27,661 bases of DNA from a virus. The translations under genes and the position numbers were made by a program. A model generated the notes under the pieces. That model had not been told where the DNA came from, did no database searches, and worked only from the letters and a program-made list of their open reading frames with translations. Positions 861 to 25,285 of this stretch are shown here, piece by piece. Position 1 is the stretch's first letter, and every line of letters begins with the position of its first letter. The stretch lies in the IMG/VR virus record IMGVR_UViG_3300005613_000337, positions 1 to 27,661 of that record; one strand, 5' to 3'.

Positions 861-1160
861 TTACTTAGTATTAAATTGATTTTGATAAAAGTTAAAAAAT
901 TCTCTTAGTTGTTTTTCACTATTGCCGTGTGATATTCTTAGCACTCCACGCTCTTTCTCTAAGTACCAATAATATTGCAAACCACCGTTTTTTAAGGCTT
1001 TTAGTTTTAGCTTTCCGCTATGAATCTCTTTGTACTCAAATTGATATTTAGTCTTTAAATTAACACAATGGTTTTGTAATATTCGCCTTAGCAGCTCGTG
1101 CATTCTTAGTTCTTTTAATCGTTGGTTTAAAAGTCGTATTTCTTTGGTTAAGTCAGTCAT
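861..1160 (-). CDS. Hypothetical protein, operon with HTH genes
   Basis: 99 residues, not recognised. The N-terminal 30 residues (LTKEIRLLNQRLKELRMHEL) look like an amphipathic helix or short coiled coil. The remainder is basic with aromatic residues (LQYYWYLEKERGVLRISHG) and ends in a predicted helix (EKQLREFFNFYQNQF). No catalytic motif, signal peptide or membrane segment is visible. The start at 1160 overlaps the stop of the XRE gene by four bases, the usual coupling in this operon, which supports it. Its position between two DNA-binding proteins suggests an early or replication-accessory role, but no function can be given. Confidence 0.7.
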   Translation of the reverse strand: MTDLTKEIRLLNQRLKELRMHELLRRILQNHCVNLKTKYQFEYKEIHSGKLKLKALKNGGLQYYWYLEKERGVLRISHGNSEKQLREFFNFYQNQFNTK

Positions 1161-1402
1161 ACTTCTTTTGGTTTAAATTCGAAAGGCATCTGTAAACATT
1201 GACACCACTTTAAAAACTCGGTTATTCTCGGCTCTGAGTGACCACTCTCCCAACGTGAGAGAGTGGCTGTATTAACTCCTATATCGTCCGCTACATCAAA
1301 TTGAGAATAGCCCATTTTATAGCGTTTAATAATCATTCTTTCGATAATGCTTTCACCTTTGCTTGTTTGCATTATGCGCGCTATGTTGGTAGTTACTTGC
1401 AT
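1157..1402 (-). CDS. XRE-family HTH transcriptional regulator
   Basis: 81 residues with one helix-turn-helix of the Cro/CI (XRE) type around residues 26-65. The core GYSQFDVADDIGVNTATLSR, followed by WESGHSEPRITEFLKWCQCL, has the expected S-Q-x-x-V-A spacing, the ATLSRWE recognition-helix pattern and the following P-x-[IL] helix. There is no extra domain for ligand or oligomerisation, so it is a minimal DNA-binding unit. It starts on the last base of the methyltransferase stop codon, hence is translationally coupled to it. A regulator next to a methyltransferase could control that gene, as in restriction-modification C proteins, or be the phage's early regulator. Both are inference. Confidence 0.85.
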   Translation of the reverse strand: MQVTTNIARIMQTSKGESIIERMIIKRYKMGYSQFDVADDIGVNTATLSRWESGHSEPRITEFLKWCQCLQMPFEFKPKEV

Positions 1403-3804: not shown

Positions 3805-3870
3805 CAAATGTAAATTGATAAAAAAGCCCTAAACATTTATTTCGATGAATAGGGCTGTTGCTTCGATGAA
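3805..3870 (-). promoter_or_regulatory. Operator-promoter element F (helicase-methyltransferase operon)
   Basis: The -7 box TACATTTG (3812-3805) is followed upstream by a 28-bp spacer, proximal site ttcgatgaa (3841-3849) and distal site ttcgatgaa (3862-3870). Both sites match the consensus exactly, start-to-start 21 bp. The distal site abuts the stop codon of the SSB-like gene. No clear TTG -33 element is visible in the spacer, which suggests an activator-dependent promoter. Confidence 0.75.
3820..3856 (-). terminator. Intrinsic terminator enclosing an operator site
   Basis: The stem is AGCCCTA/TAGGGCT (3825-3831 with 3850-3856), 7 bp, followed on the minus strand by six T residues (3825-3820). 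It would end transcription after the SSB-like gene. Its loop contains the proximal TTCGATGAA site of element F, so one stretch of DNA serves as both terminator and operator. Confidence 0.7.
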
Positions 3871-4143
3871 TTAAAAAGGTAAAATATCGCTATCGCCTTG
3901 TGGAGCTTGTGCATTATTTGCACTACTTGTATTTTGCCCCCATGTTTTACCGTTACCTAAATAAATGTCATCTTCTTGACTGTCTTTAGGCTTTTGCACC
4001 TTAATCCAATGTGTGTTACCATATTGGTCTGCTCCATCTTTTCGCTCACCTATTACAATGTTTAGGTACTTGCCTTTTTGCCCTACTACTATTTTATCCT
4101 TTGGAATTTTAGTAAGGTCAATTGATGCTGTAATTACGCTCAT
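3871..4143 (-). CDS. SSB-like single-stranded DNA-binding protein (putative)
   Basis: 90 residues. A compact N-terminal region of about 65 residues is rich in K and beta-prone segments (KIVVGQKGKYLNIVIGER, NTHWIKVQKP, DDIYLGNGKTWG). Then comes a flexible N/A/Q/S linker and an acidic hydrophobic tip, DSDILPF. The tip closely resembles the D-D-x-I-P-F tail by which bacterial SSB recruits partner proteins. The fold cannot be proved to be an OB fold from sequence alone. The neighbours (YqaJ-type nuclease and partner on one side, helicase on the other) support a role in ssDNA handling during replication or recombination. It is the last gene of its transcription unit, with a terminator right after it. 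Confidence 0.6.
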   Translation of the reverse strand: MSVITASIDLTKIPKDKIVVGQKGKYLNIVIGERKDGADQYGNTHWIKVQKPKDSQEDDIYLGNGKTWGQNTSSANNAQAPQGDSDILPF

Positions 4144-4337
4144 ATTGTTGAATTTATTTCGTGACTGTTTTTATAATCCGCCAAAAGTCTATTTTTCTTC
4201 ATGTTTTCGCGGGCTATGTTTACCTGATTAATTCGGTGCTTTTTTCTTAATCGTGCTTCTATCTTGCAACACAACATATCAAAAGCCTGTGTAAAGGCAA
4301 CTATTAAAGCTGCCATGATTAACATAAAACTTATCAT
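4140..4337 (-). CDS. Small membrane-anchored protein
   Basis: 65 residues, not recognised. Residues 1-23 (MISFMLIMAALIVAFTQAFD) form one hydrophobic segment, either a membrane anchor or an uncleaved signal sequence. The rest is a strongly basic helical tail (KIEARLRKKHRI, MKKNRLLADYKN), which by the positive-inside rule would face the cytoplasm. ATGA overlaps couple it to both neighbours: its start overlaps the stop of the 53-aa gene, and its stop overlaps the start of the SSB-like gene. Function unknown; a membrane-associated partner for replication is only a guess. Confidence 0.6.
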   Translation of the reverse strand: MISFMLIMAALIVAFTQAFDMLCCKIEARLRKKHRINQVNIARENMKKNRLLADYKNSHEINSTI

Positions 4338-4495
4338 TGATAATTTTTTAAAATTTCGTTTATTCTCTTTTTATCTACATAGCCTTTTTTACAGTTTTCT
4401 AACTCTGTTAAAAGCATTTCTATTCGTTCTTCATAACGGCTCACCAAATCGGTTAGTAGTTCGTTCTTTTTACGTTCTGTTAATAGTTCAATCAT
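4334..4495 (-). CDS. Small helical hypothetical protein (53 aa)
   Basis: A 53-residue frame, MIELLTERKKNELLTDLVSR onwards, ending ILKNYQ. It is almost wholly alpha-helical with a heptad-like pattern of leucines (LLTERKKNELL, MLLTELE) and is rich in E and K, hence a possible coiled coil. The start overlaps the end of the preceding gene by eight bases and the stop overlaps the next start, which fits the tight packing of this operon and is the main reason to believe it is translated. No function can be assigned. Confidence 0.6.
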   Translation of the reverse strand: MIELLTERKKNELLTDLVSRYEERIEMLLTELENCKKGYVDKKRINEILKNYQ

Positions 4496-4688
4496 TCGGG
4501 TTAATTATTGTCGGTTTAGGAGTAGGTATATGCTTCTCCACTTCAATCGTTTTAATACGCTTTATCTTACGTTCTAACGCACTCAATTTGTATTCCAAGT
4601 ATAAACCTATACAAAGGGTAATTAAAACGCTAAATATCGAAATTCTTATAAGCGCAAACCATGCGGCTTTATAGTTTGATTTTGCCAT
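4488..4688 (-). CDS. Small single-pass membrane protein with Pro-rich tail
   Basis: The internal ATG at 4688 was chosen (66 residues). The longer frame from 4760 would overlap the preceding gene by about 70 bases more. Residues 7-33 (AAWFALIRISIFSVLITLCI and beyond) form a membrane segment. A short helical basic region (LERKIKRIKTIEVEK) follows, then a proline-rich end (HIPTPKPTI). A short stem plus Pro-rich tail after one membrane span is reminiscent of spanin-like lysis proteins, but no lysis gene lies beside it and the context is DNA metabolism. The function is left open. Confidence 0.55.
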   Translation of the reverse strand: MAKSNYKAAWFALIRISIFSVLITLCIGLYLEYKLSALERKIKRIKTIEVEKHIPTPKPTIINPND

Positions 4689-4827
4689 ACTTCTTTTTAG
4701 TAAAGGTGTTAAAATAAAATTCCATGTTTTCGTAAGTTTCAAAGCCCCTAACTCGCCCATCGGGGTAGATTATTTTAAAAGGAAATAGGTTTCGCTTATG
4801 GTTAAAGCTTAATATGTCTAACTTCAT
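4669..4827 (-). CDS. Hypothetical protein (52 aa)
   Basis: The start at 4827 was preferred over 4854 because its ATG overlaps the exonuclease stop codon as ATGA, the coupling used throughout this operon. The 52-residue product (MKLDILSFNHKRNLFPFKII...) is basic and aromatic-rich, with FPFKIIYPDGRVRGFETYEN suggesting a small beta-rich domain, and ends KKKYGKIKL. No known motif. Its position directly after the nuclease makes a recombination accessory role possible, but nothing in the sequence shows it. Confidence 0.55.
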   Translation of the reverse strand: MKLDILSFNHKRNLFPFKIIYPDGRVRGFETYENMEFYFNTFTKKKYGKIKL

Positions 4828-5417
4828 ATTAAAGTATTTATGAACTCTCTGCACTCTTTTACTCTTTCGTAGATGCTCAAAATTGCATCATTATCGCGCT
4901 CAACTTTAAAGCTCTTTATCTTGTACTTATCGTCAACATTATCGTAGCTCTGTGCATATTGGTCAAGCTCTTCAGGTGTGTCTAAAAGTACATAATCAAC
5001 ATACGCCACGTTGCGACCTGTTAAAGCCATGTAGCCCTGCATTTGCCACCAATAGCCCTTATCTACTTCTTGCTCGAATAAAGGAAAAGTAAAGCAATCC
5101 CATGAGCATTTAGTGTCGCGTATTTCTTTTGGTGTAATGATATCGGGTGTTCCTGTTAAGTAATCGCTTTCAAAATGCTTTTCGTTTTTTACCAAAAAGT
5201 CGTAATGATAGTAATTTTCTACAAAGGCTATTGCGCTCATTTCAAGTTGAATGCCTTTATCAAGATACTTTGAATAGATTTGTTTACGTGTGCCGTATAT
5301 CCGTTCTTTTAGCCATGTTTCGCAATAAGCTTGAGCCGTTTTACTTAACTCGCCTTTTTTGCGGCTATTGGTCATTATATCGCCAATAGCCGAGCATCTT
5401 ATTTTAAATTCTCGCAT
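4824..5417 (-). CDS. YqaJ/lambda-exonuclease-like PD-(D/E)XK nuclease
   Basis: 197 residues. The PD-(D/E)XK core is visible: D92 in LTGTPDII, then D101-T-K103 in RDTKCSWD, with a glutamate near residue 59 (GIQLEMSAI) as the likely first acidic ligand. The Q-x-Q-x-Y motif typical of the YqaJ/RecB-like group follows as WWQMQGYMAL at 123-132. The family resects double-stranded ends 5' to 3' for single-strand annealing recombination. The preceding gene (5399-5866) is a plausible partner and the SSB-like gene lies downstream. It overlaps the preceding gene by 19 bases. The family call is strong; the direction of digestion is inferred from relatives. Confidence 0.85.
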   Translation of the reverse strand: MREFKIRCSAIGDIMTNSRKKGELSKTAQAYCETWLKERIYGTRKQIYSKYLDKGIQLEMSAIAFVENYYHYDFLVKNEKHFESDYLTGTPDIITPKEIRDTKCSWDCFTFPLFEQEVDKGYWWQMQGYMALTGRNVAYVDYVLLDTPEELDQYAQSYDNVDDKYKIKSFKVERDNDAILSIYERVKECREFINTLI

Positions 5418-5866
5418 AGCTTTTGTTCTATTTCGTTGGTTAACACAAATCTCATTTTAACTTGCTCTAATGTGGCTGTTTTCTCTTTTAAGGCTTTTAC
5501 AACACTTTGCCATTTAGGGTGATTTTGGTTAAGCTGTGGTAAATCGCAAATCCTAACAGCATCCATCAACTGCCCAAATGCTTTTATTTGCTCAACTCTA
5601 ACCGCTATCTTTTCATTAACCCAATCTTCAATGTAAGGAGTCTTTAAAAGCTCTGTAATAGCTTTAGAGTTGGTAGTGTTTAATATCATAGGTTTAGCAT
5701 TTTCAACGAAGTGACAAACGCTGCAAAGCTCTTTACTTTTGCTTTGTTGGTTGTAAACTTCTTCTTGCCTTACTTGCTTAATTGTAAGCAATTTTATTTC
5801 GTTAGGCTGAAAATCCCATGCGCCTAAGTAATCTGGGTTCTGTAATTTTTTCCAATGTGTTTTCAT
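5399..5866 (-). CDS. Phage protein paired with the exonuclease (putative recombination partner)
   Basis: 155 residues. The opening THWKKLQNPDYLGAWDFQPN and the segment KPMILNTTNSKAITEL, then TPYIEDWVNEKIAV, belong to a family I recognise from phages, often near YqaJ-like nucleases, but with no proven function. The N-terminal 110 residues look beta-rich, which would suit an OB-like nucleic-acid-binding fold. The last 40 residues form a helical tail (ALKEKTATLEQVKMRF). Cys48 and Cys51 (CSVC), with H52, are too few for a clear zinc site. By context it could be the annealing or ssDNA-binding partner of the nuclease. Confidence 0.65.
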   Translation of the reverse strand: MKTHWKKLQNPDYLGAWDFQPNEIKLLTIKQVRQEEVYNQQSKSKELCSVCHFVENAKPMILNTTNSKAITELLKTPYIEDWVNEKIAVRVEQIKAFGQLMDAVRICDLPQLNQNHPKWQSVVKALKEKTATLEQVKMRFVLTNEIEQKLCENLK

Positions 5867-5867
5867 C

Positions 5868-6137
5868 TTACTTCATTATTAATTTGTCCGCAAAAGTTTT
5901 AATTGTGTTCTTAGCGTTTTTGTACGCTTCCATAAACTCGGCTTTGTTGCTCTTTTCGTAGTTGTTAGTTTCTACAATCATTCGCTTCCAATGGTCAATA
6001 GGAAAACGCCTTTTTGTTTCCATTATATCAGCTGTACCATCTACATAATTTGCTACTGTCATTTCACGGCAAAAGCTACCATCTTTTAATATACACATTT
6101 GGCTGCCTGTTGCTTTGCTTTTAAAATAAATTTCCAT
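5868..6137 (-). CDS. Hypothetical early protein (89 aa)
   Basis: 89 residues, not recognised. The N-terminal half is beta-prone (MEIYFKSKATGSQMCILKDG, then MTVANYVDGTADIME) and contains RRFPIDHWKRMI. The second half is a charged helix (EKSNKAEFMEAYKNAKNTIK). It starts one base after the stop of the 43-aa gene and ends one base before the next gene, so it belongs to the unit begun by element E. No membrane segment or catalytic motif. Being the second gene of the recombination unit hints at DNA metabolism, no more. Confidence 0.6.
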   Translation of the reverse strand: MEIYFKSKATGSQMCILKDGSFCREMTVANYVDGTADIMETKRRFPIDHWKRMIVETNNYEKSNKAEFMEAYKNAKNTIKTFADKLIMK

Positions 6138-6138
6138 T

Positions 6139-6270
6139 TTACTTAAATTTTAAAATTGTTTTCTCAAATGACTCTTTACTAAACTTTGTTTTACGGTATT
6201 TCTTGTATGCGTTATAAGCTGCATCTAATCCTAACTTGTGGTAAATTTTAATTATTTGTGTTATAGTCAT
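6139..6270 (-). CDS. Small basic protein (43 aa), first gene of recombination operon
   Basis: Frame of 43 codons: MTITQIIKIYHKLGLDAAYN onwards, then AYKKYRKTKFSKESFEKTIL and KFK. It is helical and strongly basic (11 Lys in 43 residues by my count), consistent with nucleic-acid binding. It is the first frame after operator-promoter element E. The distance from the -7 box to the ATG (18 nt) and the A-rich leader match the other element-driven genes, which is good evidence that it is translated. It abuts the 89-aa gene. Confidence 0.6.
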   Translation of the reverse strand: MTITQIIKIYHKLGLDAAYNAYKKYRKTKFSKESFEKTILKFK

Positions 6271-6288
6271 TTGTTTGATTTAATGATT

Positions 6289-6354
6289 CAAAAGTATAGT
6301 TAAAGCCTACTCACCTTAATTTATTTCGATGAGTAGGCTGTTTTATTCGATTAA
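6289..6354 (-). promoter_or_regulatory. Operator-promoter element E (recombination operon)
   Basis: The -7 box TACTTTTG (6296-6289), a 28-bp spacer, proximal site ttcgatgag (6325-6333) and distal site ttcgattaa (6346-6354), start-to-start 21 bp. The distal site overlaps the TAA stop codon of the upstream 64-aa gene. The leader AATCATTAAATCAAACAA to the ATG resembles those of elements B and D. Confidence 0.75.
6304..6339 (-). terminator. Hairpin (10-bp perfect stem) overlapping element E
   Basis: AGCCTACTCA (6304-6313) pairs perfectly with TGAGTAGGCT (6330-6339) across a 16-base loop that holds most of the proximal operator site. On the minus strand the T tract after the stem is short (TT then AAC), so termination may be partial. 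The placement is equivalent to the terminator in element F. Confidence 0.55.
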
Positions 6355-6545
6355 TTGTTATTTAAAAACTCTTGCAAGTATTTAGGATTCCAATTCTCTT
6401 CCGTGTCAATCTCAGGAAATGGTTTAGATTGCGCTTCTTTCATTGCTCTTTCGTGTGGGAAGTATGGACTCCAATAATCGTAAACTTCTCTTTGCTCAGG
6501 TGTTAAGGCTGCTCTTTCTTCTCTTTGTTGCTTGTAACTTTTCAT
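6351..6545 (-). CDS. Hypothetical protein (64 aa)
   Basis: 64 residues, not recognised. It is strongly charged and helical at the start (SYKQQREERAALTPEQREVY), with a middle YWSPYFPHERAMKEAQSKPF and an acidic-aromatic end (EENWNPKYLQEFLNNN). It looks like a soluble small phage accessory protein. It lies 12 bases after the preceding gene, with an A-rich leader (AAACAAACAAG) directly before the ATG. It is the last gene of the element D unit and its stop codon is part of the distal site of element E. Confidence 0.55.
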   Translation of the reverse strand: MKSYKQQREERAALTPEQREVYDYWSPYFPHERAMKEAQSKPFPEIDTEENWNPKYLQEFLNNN

Positions 6546-6557
6546 CTTGTTTGTTTT

Positions 6558-6770
6558 TTAATTATTTGCTTTATATCTTGCTATTAATTCCGCTTCCAAT
6601 TCTTTTAACTCGTCAGCTTTAGCGCAAGCATAGTTTAAATGCTCTCTTGCAGCGTGAACTCGTTTCGCTTCTAAATGCTCCATAGCTGATTTTGTAGCGT
6701 ATTTTTTTGCTCTAACTAATTTGTTTGCTTTTTCTGCAAGTTGTTCGGTGGTTAAATTGCTAAGTGTCAT
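6558..6770 (-). CDS. Small coiled-coil protein (70 aa)
   Basis: 70 residues, almost entirely helical, rich in Ala, Glu and Lys with regularly spaced Leu/Ala (LTTEQLAEKANKLVRAKKYA, then LKELEAELIARYK). It may be an antiparallel helical hairpin or coiled coil. No catalytic motif. It is the first gene after operator-promoter element D, with leader CATCAAACAAAAACAAAATAAG before its ATG shared in style with the other elements. This makes it an early or middle accessory gene of unknown job. Confidence 0.6.
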   Translation of the reverse strand: MTLSNLTTEQLAEKANKLVRAKKYATKSAMEHLEAKRVHAAREHLNYACAKADELKELEAELIARYKANN

Positions 6771-6795
6771 CTTATTTTGTTTTTGTTTGATGACT

Positions 6796-6861
6796 CAAAT
6801 ATAAAAAGGCGCATCAATCGACACGCCTTTTTTAGATAAACTGCAATATACTTTCGACTAA
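6796..6861 (-). promoter_or_regulatory. Operator-promoter element D
   Basis: The -7 box TATATTTG (6803-6796), a 28-bp spacer, proximal site ttagataaa (6832-6840) and distal site ttcgactaa (6853-6861), start-to-start 21 bp. The distal site overlaps the stop codon of the 42-aa gene (6858-6860). The sites are degenerate, but the geometry is identical to E and F. Confidence 0.65.
6803..6832 (-). terminator. Intrinsic terminator whose T-tract runs into the -7 box
   Basis: AAAAAGGCG (6803-6811) pairs with CGCCTTTTT (6824-6832) with a 12-base loop. The minus-strand T run after the stem leads straight into the TATATTTG box of element D. It ends the unit containing the metallophosphoesterase and small membrane genes. 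The terminator occupies the whole spacer between operator and -7 box. Confidence 0.75.
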
Positions 6862-8709: not shown

Positions 8710-8776
8710 CAAAATAAACTAAATGTGATACTATAAAAATCAATAATTCGACAAATAGCGGCATATTAAAGATTAA
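8710..8776 (-). promoter_or_regulatory. Operator-promoter element C (metallophosphoesterase unit)
   Basis: Proximal site ttcgacaaa (8747-8755) and distal site aaagattaa (8768-8776), start-to-start 21 bp; the distal site overlaps the TAA stop of the 71-aa gene. The spacer to a weak -7 box (TTATTTTG, 8717-8710, one mismatch to TAnnTTTG) is 29 bp. It is recognisable mainly from spacing and placement. No terminator hairpin is visible in 8688-8772. Confidence 0.5.
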
Positions 8777-13681: not shown

Positions 13682-14020
13682 ATGAAAACGGTAATTAGCA
13701 AACAAGGTATTGACCTATCAGATGCAAAGACTGAAAAGGTAGGAAAGGATAATAGATTAATGACCATTGCAGGGGCTTTTTTACTTTGCTTTATCCCATT
13801 AGGTAGCGTTGTGATGCTTATTAACGCTTATATCTGTTTTACCCGAACTTATGTAATGGTATTTCATCATGATGGTATGCAAAACAATGAACTTTACAGG
13901 CAATTAAATCAAGATGAAATAAAACATGAACGTATTAACTCTTACATCTATTTAGTAGCTCTTTTATTTTCAAGAGTGCTTCCCGTTGGCTATTATCTTA
14001 TGCACCATAATTTCGCTTAG
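13682..14020 (+). CDS. Lone plus-strand small membrane protein
   Basis: 112 residues, not recognised. There are two membrane segments, about 26-52 (MTIAGAFLLCFIPLGSVVML onwards) and 86-107 (SYIYLVALLFSRVLPVGYYL). Between them is a polar loop of about 33 residues (FHHDGMQNNELYRQLNQDEI). It is the only convincing gene on this strand. It fills a stretch of about 330 bases with no minus-strand frame, has its own TAACTTTG box, and overlaps the 3' end of the convergent gene by 51 bases. An independently expressed membrane protein dropped between tail and head blocks resembles a 'moron', often a superinfection-exclusion or lysogenic conversion gene. That role is inference. Confidence 0.65.
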   Translation: MKTVISKQGIDLSDAKTEKVGKDNRLMTIAGAFLLCFIPLGSVVMLINAYICFTRTYVMVFHHDGMQNNELYRQLNQDEIKHERINSYIYLVALLFSRVLPVGYYLMHHNFA

Positions 14021-14212: not shown

Positions 14213-16356
14213 AATGTGCTATTTACTTCTACTGTGTTAATTCCGTTTTGCATTGCCGTTGTTACAGGTATTTGCAAGACTGTTTTTTGTTGCATCATTG
14301 CCATTTCAATAGCCTTTAATTGCTCGCTCTCTAACTGTTTATTCATTATACCACTCATTGAAGGTATAAAGCTTGTTAAGCCGCCTGTTTCAAATTTCTT
14401 GCCGCCCCCCGCTTGATTAATGGCTGACAATATCGGCTTAAACATTAATGTACTTCTTTTATTAATAATTGCTTCGCCCCCTTCTGCTTCGTGTATTCTA
14501 CCCCCTACTTTGAACTTAACACCACCTTGAGCATGACTTGCACCTTCAAACATTCCACCTTCTGTAAGACCACCTTGAGCAAATTGTGAAGTTACATAAG
14601 CCTTTGCACCTTGCACCGCACCAATTAACAAAGCGTTTAATGCTGCTACCCTTGCTACTGCACTCGCTCCAAAGGTTGCAACTGCATCAGGTTGAGCTAA
14701 TGAAATACCTGTTATCTGTGCGCTTAGTACAGGTATCATACCTTGCAAAGTATCAAGCAATCCTAAAAGTAGTATCTTTTTAAAGTTTTCAATACTTGTT
14801 GCTCCACTACCTACCATCTCACCAACTGCTAATGCGATACCTTCAAATGATTGTGCGCCAACTCTACCCAACTTTAACAAAGTAACTTCATAATCTATTG
14901 CTGCTCTATTCATGTTGTTATAAGCCTCAACTGTTACGGCTTCTCTTTCAATTGTAGCTTCTGTTAATTCTTCTGTTATTGCTAACTCTTCACTTATAGC
15001 AACTGTTCTTCTCTTTATTACACCCGCAACACCGCTTTTTTTGGCAGTTGCTTCTCTCTTGTTTTGTAGCTCATTGAGTTTTGTCGTTAAGGTTCTTTCT
15101 AACTTTAAAGCGTCACTTTGAACATCATTAAATCGTATGTATTCATCAACTAATTCTTTTAAATCATCTACCGTGCTTGGGTCTAATCCGATTTGGTCTA
15201 TTAAAACATTAGCTTTTGCCGCTGCTTCATCTAAAGTTGTAAATCCTTCATCTAATTGTTGCAATACAAAGTTTAATTTTTCACGCCCTTCGACTTCACC
15301 TAATATGTTTTGAATCTTTTGTTTTTGCGTTTGAATCTCCAAAGCGTTAAGCCCTTTTTGCAAATCAATGGCTTTTTGAATAGCGTTTATTCTTTCGTCT
15401 AATGTTTTATTCTCTTGTTCTGCAATTAGCTGTAAATCCTTTATTGCTCTTTTTGTATTAGCCCTTTGAGCGTTTAATAATATTTGCGCTTTTTCTAATT
15501 TAATTGCCCTTCTTTCAAGCTCACCTATTAATACTACTTCTCTTTCCAACTCATCTCCCATGCCTTTAAACGCATCTGTTAATCCTTCAACTGCACCTTT
15601 CCAATCTCCCCTAAAAAAATCAAAGATTGCTTTACCTGCAATGGTTAACCTTTCAATTAAAACATTTACAACTTGCCCTATTTGTTTAAATAGCACTCTA
15701 ATTGTTTCACCGCCTTCCCTTGTGCGACTAAAATAACTAACTACTGATGCTAACGCTATAACTAAAGCCCCTATACCCGTTGCAATTATAGCAAATCTTA
15801 ACAATTTTAGCATTTTGTTAGCTCCACCTATTGCCCCTGTTGTAGCTTGAACTGCTCGAGATGCTTGAGTAAATTGCGTTGTTACTTGACCAACATTAAC
15901 TCCCATAATGTTAAGTTGACCTGCTGCATCTTTTAAAGCTAATTGATAATTTCCTACATTACGAGTATGTACACCGTTAGTTGCATCTAACTTCTTGAGC
16001 CTACTGTTTATATCGTTTATTCGTTTGCCGTACCTTTCATACTCTTTTTGCCCTTCTTTAGTTGTTATGTTTATCTGCTTTTGCTGTCTTTTTAATTGAG
16101 CCATTTCAGCACTTAGAGAATCATAACTGCCTTCAACAGCACTTGCGCTTTTCGATAATGCTCTCTGACTCGTTGCAAGTTCTTTATTCTCTTGTTGCAA
16201 CTTCGTTATTTCGACAGCGTTTTCTTCATAGGCTTGTGAAAGCTCTTTTATAGATTCTTTGTTTTGCCTAATTCTAACGTTTAAAGCAGCCGCTTCTTTT
16301 AATGCAGCATCACCGCCCTTTACATCAAACTCGAATATTATCTTTTCTGTTGCCAT
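14209..16356 (-). CDS. Tail tape measure protein
   Basis: 715 residues. The first 140 residues are coiled coil (LSQAYEENAVEITKLQQENK, then RQQKQINITTKEGQKEYERY). A hydrophobic stretch lies at about 187-210 (LRFAIIATGIGALVIALASV). Long charged helices follow (KAQILLNAQRANTKRAIKDL), and then a Gly-rich end (GGLTEGGMFEGASHAQGGVK, then GGRIHEAEGGEAIINK) of the sort seen in phage tape measures. At about 0.15 nm per residue, the family rule of thumb, it would give a tail near 100 nm. It ends four bases into the next gene and follows the 1512-residue protein by one base. Confidence 0.85.
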   Translation of the reverse strand: MATEKIIFEFDVKGGDAALKEAAALNVRIRQNKESIKELSQAYEENAVEITKLQQENKELATSQRALSKSASAVEGSYDSLSAEMAQLKRQQKQINITTKEGQKEYERYGKRINDINSRLKKLDATNGVHTRNVGNYQLALKDAAGQLNIMGVNVGQVTTQFTQASRAVQATTGAIGGANKMLKLLRFAIIATGIGALVIALASVVSYFSRTREGGETIRVLFKQIGQVVNVLIERLTIAGKAIFDFFRGDWKGAVEGLTDAFKGMGDELEREVVLIGELERRAIKLEKAQILLNAQRANTKRAIKDLQLIAEQENKTLDERINAIQKAIDLQKGLNALEIQTQKQKIQNILGEVEGREKLNFVLQQLDEGFTTLDEAAAKANVLIDQIGLDPSTVDDLKELVDEYIRFNDVQSDALKLERTLTTKLNELQNKREATAKKSGVAGVIKRRTVAISEELAITEELTEATIEREAVTVEAYNNMNRAAIDYEVTLLKLGRVGAQSFEGIALAVGEMVGSGATSIENFKKILLLGLLDTLQGMIPVLSAQITGISLAQPDAVATFGASAVARVAALNALLIGAVQGAKAYVTSQFAQGGLTEGGMFEGASHAQGGVKFKVGGRIHEAEGGEAIINKRSTLMFKPILSAINQAGGGKKFETGGLTSFIPSMSGIMNKQLESEQLKAIEMAMMQQKTVLQIPVTTAMQNGINTVEVNSTL

Positions 16357-23525: not shown

Positions 23526-23592
23526 CAAATATAAAACGCCTTACCCCTACTAAATCAATCATTTCGATGAACTAAACCAAACCTTCGATGAA
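23526..23592 (-). promoter_or_regulatory. Operator-promoter element B
   Basis: The -7 box TATATTTG (23533-23526), a 29-bp spacer, proximal site ttcgatgaa (23563-23571) and distal site ttcgatgaa (23584-23592), start-to-start 21 bp; both are exact consensus. The leader after the box (AATCATCAAAAACAAACAAAG) leads directly to the ATG at 23504. Confidence 0.75.
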
Positions 23593-23594
23593 TT

Positions 23595-23621
23595 AAAAAG
23601 CCCTGTCGTTAAACAGGGCTT
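23595..23621 (-). terminator. Intrinsic terminator after glycosyltransferase gene
   Basis: AAGCCCTG (23598-23605) pairs perfectly with CAGGGCTT (23614-23621) with an 8-base loop, followed by T5 on the minus strand. It ends the unit containing the GT9-like gene. Here the terminator lies just upstream of the operator pair rather than through it. Nothing else is seen in 23622-23654. Confidence 0.75.
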
Positions 23622-24952: not shown

Positions 24953-25018
24953 TAAAAGTATTAAACCAAACCAAACTACTAAACTATTTTAGACGAACTA
25001 CGCCAAAGCTTCGATAAA
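24953..25018 (-). promoter_or_regulatory. Operator-promoter element A
   Basis: The -7 box TACTTTTA (24960-24953, last base differs from TAnnTTTG), a 28-bp spacer, proximal site ttagacgaa (24989-24997) and distal site ttcgataaa (25010-25018), start-to-start 21 bp. Both are followed by the same four bases, ctac. The distal site abuts the stop codon of the frameshift product. No terminator hairpin is seen here. Confidence 0.65.
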
Positions 25019-25285
25019 CTACTCTTTTTCTTTGATGTAAAATAAAGCGGTTAAAGCATCAATAGCATTTGTTTTTAATACCTTATCCATTGTTCCAAAT
25101 ATACCACTTTGGCTTAATTCCATTAATGCACCATACCAAAAGCCGAAACGCATCATTCTGTTTTGCTTCTCTTGAACTTCCCTTTGAGCTTCTCTACTAA
25201 GTTTAGCCATTTTAGCCATATTGCTACGACCTTTGAATAAAGCTTTAAATCTCTCAGCGTAATCCGTTGCCATTTTTGAAGCAAA
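25019..25285 (-). CDS. -1 frame extension of the 25153-25800 gene
   Basis: An 88-residue extension reached if ribosomes slip back one base on the T9 run. It reads FASKMATDYAERFKALFKGR, continues with helical text (KLSREAQREVQEKQNRMMRF) and ends TALFYIKEKE. It has no good start codon of its own before residue 5 (ATG at 25273). The joined product would be about 260 residues (172 from frame 0 plus 88). The text looks genuinely coding: mixed composition, long amphipathic helices. A start at 25273 or a one-base homopolymer sequencing error are the alternatives. Confidence 0.55.
   Translation of the reverse strand, partial: FASKMATDYAERFKALFKGRSNMAKMAKLSREAQREVQEKQNRMMRFGFWYGALMELSQSGIFGTMDKVLKTNAIDALTALFYIKEKE

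Follow-up and report, generated by a model that had tools for sequence, protein, structure and literature searches.

How can a stop codon, a terminator-like hairpin, an activator-type site and a promoter share some 70 bp, and do parts packed so tightly act on one another or merely lie side by side? The question is raised by three gene boundaries, named here elements D, E and F, of the virus record IMGVR_UViG_3300005613_000337. The window analysed comprises positions 1 to 27,661 of this record (27,661 bases; G000 in comparisons with relatives), and its genes, almost all on the minus strand, include those for a major capsid protein, a portal, a tape measure protein, a helicase and a methylase, assigned partly by inspection. 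An initial annotation had noted that the four features coincide in D, E and F, as they indeed do, and had interpreted them as a device coupling the end of one transcription unit to the start of the next. The explanation that we favour, with a probability of about 0.65, is that these elements are composite gene joints, where a LytTR-type tandem site, a promoter of the Bacteroidota type and a packed terminator would carry out independent functions.

The genomic context of the window can be partly reconstructed. Another contig (G015) overlaps it at both ends, with 98.6% and 86% identity, and the two together would thus make up a genome of about 37 kb. The phage collection searched held no near relative; the portal bears a remote resemblance to that of Nonlabens phage P12024S, the nearest isolate found, where no operators were detected. 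Phages having only the helicase in common with the window (988 kb) likewise gave no operator matches, and the helicase relatives (80 loci) were discarded as a conservation sample, since the gene is common to all of them and the element is present in none. A lone plus-strand ORF of 112 amino acids (13682-14020), apparently encoding a membrane protein, stands amid the otherwise minus-strand genome.

A tandem operator at a fixed distance from a promoter box

The operator is made of two 9-bp sites (TTCATCGAA or close to it) whose starts are 21 bp apart; the box TAnnTTTG comes 28 or 29 bp after the second site, so that the full motif reads TTCRTCGAA, 12 bp, TTCRTCGAA, 28/29 bp, TAnnTTTG. A weight-matrix scan of 17 phage contigs, a few of them near-identical, yielded 67 operator matches, against none on the same contigs reversed. 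A box matching in at least 5/6 accompanies 53 of these 67, and the remainder are neighbouring registers, element G or boxless pairs. Within the window, pairs at the 21-bp spacing scoring above 20 occur in elements A, B, D, E, F and G, compared with none in 20 shuffled windows, and one further plus-strand match, at 15226, lies inside a coding sequence and lacks a box. Eleven element classes (A to K) can be told apart in close relatives, and more exist in the distant phages G017-G019, whose elements have TTCGTCGAA as the proximal site. The promoter would be of the activator-dependent Bacteroidota type, with TAnnTTTG and no clear -33 element, and the motif as a whole offers a concrete candidate for promoters of this kind in Bacteroidota and their phages. 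An exact double-site scan of viral contigs was set aside (44 matches, mostly coding coincidences), and a literature search for the motif itself retrieved unrelated papers only.

All the elements of the window are read on the minus strand, and four of them (A, B, C and G) have no hairpin running through the operator. Element A (24953-25021) opens with a TAG stop codon (25021-25019), followed by the two sites (25018-25010 and 24997-24989) and the box TACTTTTA (24960-24953). Element B (23526-23621) carries an ordinary terminator stem (23621-23598) upstream of the distal site, and then the two sites (23592-23584 and 23571-23563), a 29-bp spacer and the box TATATTTG (23533-23526). Element C (8710-8776), kept in G005 and G007, is a weak one: its site pair (8776-8747) falls short of those scoring above 20, with a distal site TTAATCTTT (8776-8768) enclosing the TAA stop codon (8775-8773), a proximal site TTTGTCGAA (8755-8747) and a box-like TTATTTTG (8717-8710). 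In element G (612-655), kept in G001, G005 and G015, both sites (655-647 and 634-626) lie in the last codons of the ORF 620-859. There, a TAnnTTTG at 28 bp was looked for and is absent; the nearest box, TATCTTTG (619-612), is only 6 bp away from the sites, with an ATG close behind, a spacing at which protein binding may cause repression instead of activation.

The stop codon of the preceding gene abuts or overlaps the distal site in A (-3), C (inside), D (+1), E (+1) and F (-3), which, together with the position of both sites of G in the last codons of its gene, confirms the overlap described earlier for six elements. Between the box and the ATG, nearly all elements show an A-rich leader (ATCATCAAACAAACAAA or close to it; for example, 23525-23500 and 24952-24925 in the window), whose conservation may reflect a help for translation or for recombination.

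Hairpins through the operators and their likely role

Element F (3805-3873), conserved in G001 and G005, starts with a TAA stop codon (3873-3871) and the distal site (3870-3862). A 7-bp stem, AGCCCTA/TAGGGCT (arms 3856-3850 and 3831-3825), encloses the proximal site (3849-3841), flanking it just as the initial annotation had stated, and is followed by TTTTTTATC, with the T-tract at 3824-3819, and by the box TACATTTG (3812-3805). Element E (6289-6354), conserved in G001, G002 and G005, has a TAA stop codon (6353-6351) inside its distal site (6354-6346), a proximal site at 6333-6325 and the box TACTTTTG at 6296-6289. Its stem (arms 6339-6328 and 6315-6304) comprises 12 pairs, 11 of them Watson-Crick and one G-U, and the outer 10 are perfect; the perfect 10-bp stem reported before is therefore real, although it does not simply surround the proximal site, whose first six bases are part of the 5′ arm. 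The T-tract of E is weak (TTTAACTATAC), the stem being followed by TTTAACT only, which makes this element the weakest terminator of the three and counts against the favoured explanation. Finally, element D (6796-6861), conserved in G005 and, with a G-U pair, in G002, contains a TAG stop codon (6860-6858) inside the distal site (6861-6853), the proximal site at 6840-6832 and a 12-bp stem with a 4-base loop (arms 6831-6820 and 6815-6804), which, as previously noticed, fills exactly the 28-bp spacer and ends at the box TATATTTG (6803-6796).

The presence of the three hairpins was upheld when compared with shuffles of the same bases in which the operators were held fixed, with z-scores of -3.0 for D, -6.4 for E and -4.15 (-4.2 when rounded) for F. 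D and F combine strong, stable stems with T-runs directly behind, in the orientation suited to ending the upstream minus-strand genes, as in intrinsic terminators, and E has a stable stem with a weak T-run. One could argue that the hairpins are incidental, or that they act at the DNA level as cruciforms or as an extra symmetry for protein binding, a reading to which E, without a good T-tract, and the stem of class I, without any, would lend some credit. The stems and T-runs of D and F speak against it, and so do E and F when read on the plus strand, where no T-run lies directly behind the stems; we consider it very improbable. The class I stem (AAAGGCT/AGCCTTT) was examined as a fourth hairpin folded through an operator and rejected, being not above chance.

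Stem and operator are kept together in all the orthologs found (three phages for D, four for E and three for F), with changes such as U-A to U-G in E or G-C to G-U in D of G002. The relatives having these elements are close, with about 82-95% DNA identity, so that this conservation is limited evidence and another point against our explanation. The joint conservation of stem and operator, named as a check in the initial annotation, holds for D, E and F and fails for class I, where the stem is missing in three of the seven contigs (G003, G005 and G006), all of which retain the operator.

Would a protein bound at the operator alter the hairpin, or block the upstream polymerase, and thus co-regulate termination and the next start? 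The anatomy invites such a coupling: the proximal site lies in the loop of F and in an arm of E, the terminated 3′ end of D would fall inside the box, and a polymerase halted at the T-tract would cover the promoter, which makes mutual exclusion physically likely. However, operators without a stem through them are found in classes A, B, H, J and K and in all the classes of the distant phages, and the losses in class I left the operator intact. Hairpins at only some of the promoters do not point to a common control of termination, and with most classes devoid of a stem, the hairpin is better regarded as an addition to some elements than as a part of the switch. The coupling proposed initially finds no support here, and we deem it improbable; the initial interpretation is, overall, partly supported.

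A terminator independent of the operator and packed into a spacer of fixed length would be the simpler explanation for the anatomy of D, E and F. According to this explanation, the intrinsic terminator of the preceding gene would have been packed into the interval between operator and box, with the stop codon of that gene coinciding with the distal site. The hairpin would end the transcripts of the upstream unit and thus shield the promoter from read-through; most likely, regulator and hairpin work independently, which would leave units insulated from one another and exchangeable as cassettes. Such hairpins resemble the ordinary intrinsic terminators between tandem operons in that a stem and a T-run end the upstream gene, but differ in that the stem occupies the spacer between activator site and box, or encloses the activator site itself.

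The same module in bacterial genomes and the candidate activator

The strict pattern occurs in 66 contigs of a bacterial and archaeal genome collection, nearly all from Bacteroidota or Ignavibacteria, whereas about 2 contigs would be expected by chance (our own estimate, assuming uniform base composition). The spacer between site and TAnnTTTG is 28 or 29 bp in phage and bacterial genomes alike, which places the operator at a fixed position just upstream of the promoter. The pattern is confined to a small fraction of Bacteroidota (one out of 61 sampled genomes, that one being the seed itself), a rarity that weighs against the favoured explanation.

What stands behind the bacterial copies suggests a regulator. 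At one locus (L197), the first gene behind the element encodes a PF06580 histidine kinase, and the next one a LytTR-domain response regulator. A LytTR regulator also appears in the gene row or operon headed by the element at L157, L191 and L211, and the kinase at L181 and L218. At about 3 LytTR genes per Mb, the remaining loci (roughly 47) should by our estimate contain some 0.3 cases by chance, against three independent cases seen. The published binding pattern of LytTR proteins consists of 9-bp direct repeats separated by 12 bp, immediately upstream of the promoter (PMC6193735), and the phage elements share with the promoters regulated by these proteins the length of the repeats, the 12-bp gap and the upstream position. 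They differ in the repeat itself, TTCRTCGAA here versus the ACCRCTTAY-type repeats tabulated in PMC6193735, so that the match to the consensus is partial, and in the lack of a LytTR gene beside the phage copies: no PF04397 match was found in the 17 phage records. Both differences count against our explanation.

The 9-12-9 geometry, the module before kinase-LytTR operons and the lack of a LytTR gene in the phages lead us to take a LytTR regulator of the host as the most likely candidate activator of the phage elements. It would bind both repeats of the tandem site, which ends 28 or 29 bp upstream of the box, and recruit the RNA polymerase, suggesting a phage that may be wired to a sensor-regulator system of its host.

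A different regulator, encoded by the phage itself, can be envisaged: the Cro/C1-type HTH protein P0001 (81 amino acids; 1157-1402, minus strand) or the winged-helix protein of ORF 620-859. The gene for P0001 lies downstream of element F, with those for the helicase and the methylase in between, the protein is 95-98% conserved in G001, G005 and G015, and a remote relative lies behind a methylase gene of G018, a distant phage with the same operators. However, the two HTH proteins differ in their putative recognition helices, whereas the operator is nearly unchanged, and operator and spacing are also found in bacterial genomes before LytTR operons. Moreover, the usual Cro/C1 operator is a palindrome, unlike the 9-12-9 direct repeat. 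We regard a phage-encoded regulator as unlikely. The occurrence of a small Cro/C1-type HTH gene after the methylase gene in both the window phage and G018 (L143, 750-950), with an identity of only 28%, is an observation in its own right.

Terminators packed into the spacer are also found in bacteria, which indicates that phages did not invent this layout. One Bacteroidales group provides 16 species in which the element comes after yebC (identified from its sequence), and the spacer is filled, as in D, by a terminator stem; two pairs of this stem are changed on both sides, and the covariation score was reached in one out of 500 shuffles. A second bacterial locus (L174 and L211) shows an unrelated stem at the same place. 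Beyond that group, in the wider genus, family and order, many species have an ordinary terminator after yebC and no operator, so that the terminator there belongs to the upstream gene, a further argument against coupling. The fixed spacer of 28/29 bp would simply happen to suit a stem and a T-run. Stemless bacterial elements show a weak T-rich, -33-like stretch whose place is taken elsewhere by the stem, and its loss would make the stem-bearing promoters more dependent on their activator. In a Saprospiraceae contig (L182), an inverted repeat of about 15 bp near the element, detected by eye only, apparently encloses both sites, a more extreme version of the arrangement in F.

Gene joints and the exchange of accessory genes

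The 67-bp element is 76-100% identical between orthologs, and the 100 bp downstream often fall to the level of unrelated elements (mean baseline of 0.67). Within a class the upstream gene is nearly constant, and different genes follow: six behind A (in eight contigs), four behind H, five behind I and three behind D, with the families g3 and g11 each found behind both A and H. The upstream side can also vary, as in G002, where element E is 96% identical, stem included, but the preceding gene is unrelated and ends on the same stop codon inside the distal site. Judged from these comparisons, the elements are gene joints, with different small genes slotted behind the same joint in related phages. 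The common operator, box and A-rich leader could provide short homologies for the exchange of accessory genes.

A similar association is described for the promoter early stem-loops (PeSLs) of T4-like phages (Arbiol 2010; Comeau 2014; both as cited in PMC4503421), composite promoter-terminator motifs located at gene boundaries at which related phages shuffle their accessory genes. Both systems share a compact promoter and stem-loop at gene boundaries, repeated genome-wide, and the exchange of accessory genes. They differ in the phage group, in the Bacteroidota-type box and in the tandem activator site, which is the constant part here, as well as in the stem-loop, present only in some elements and folded through operator or spacer. 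Promoter and stem-loop share one short intergenic element in D, E, F and B, not in A, H, J and K, and the elements do lie at the boundaries of exchanged genes. Instead of the early T4-type promoter of a T4-like myovirus, we find a Bacteroidota-type box in a genome of about 37 kb, with a portal only remotely like that of P12024S. Besides the T4-like phages, this is another phage group with promoter-terminator elements marking the sites of accessory-gene exchange.

More tentatively, and somewhat short of even odds, this family of Bacteroidota phages could use a LytTR regulator of the host to run about a dozen promoters through portable joints made of stop codon, terminator, operator, promoter and leader, where a small gene between two joints would be an insulated unit expressed when the sensor system of the host is active.

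In BLAST comparisons of related phages, the blocks of homology stop at or close to elements (25018, 6354 and 23638 in the window, and the loci L145 and L147), two of them exactly at the start of a distal site (25018 and 6354), which identifies the elements as mosaic boundaries.
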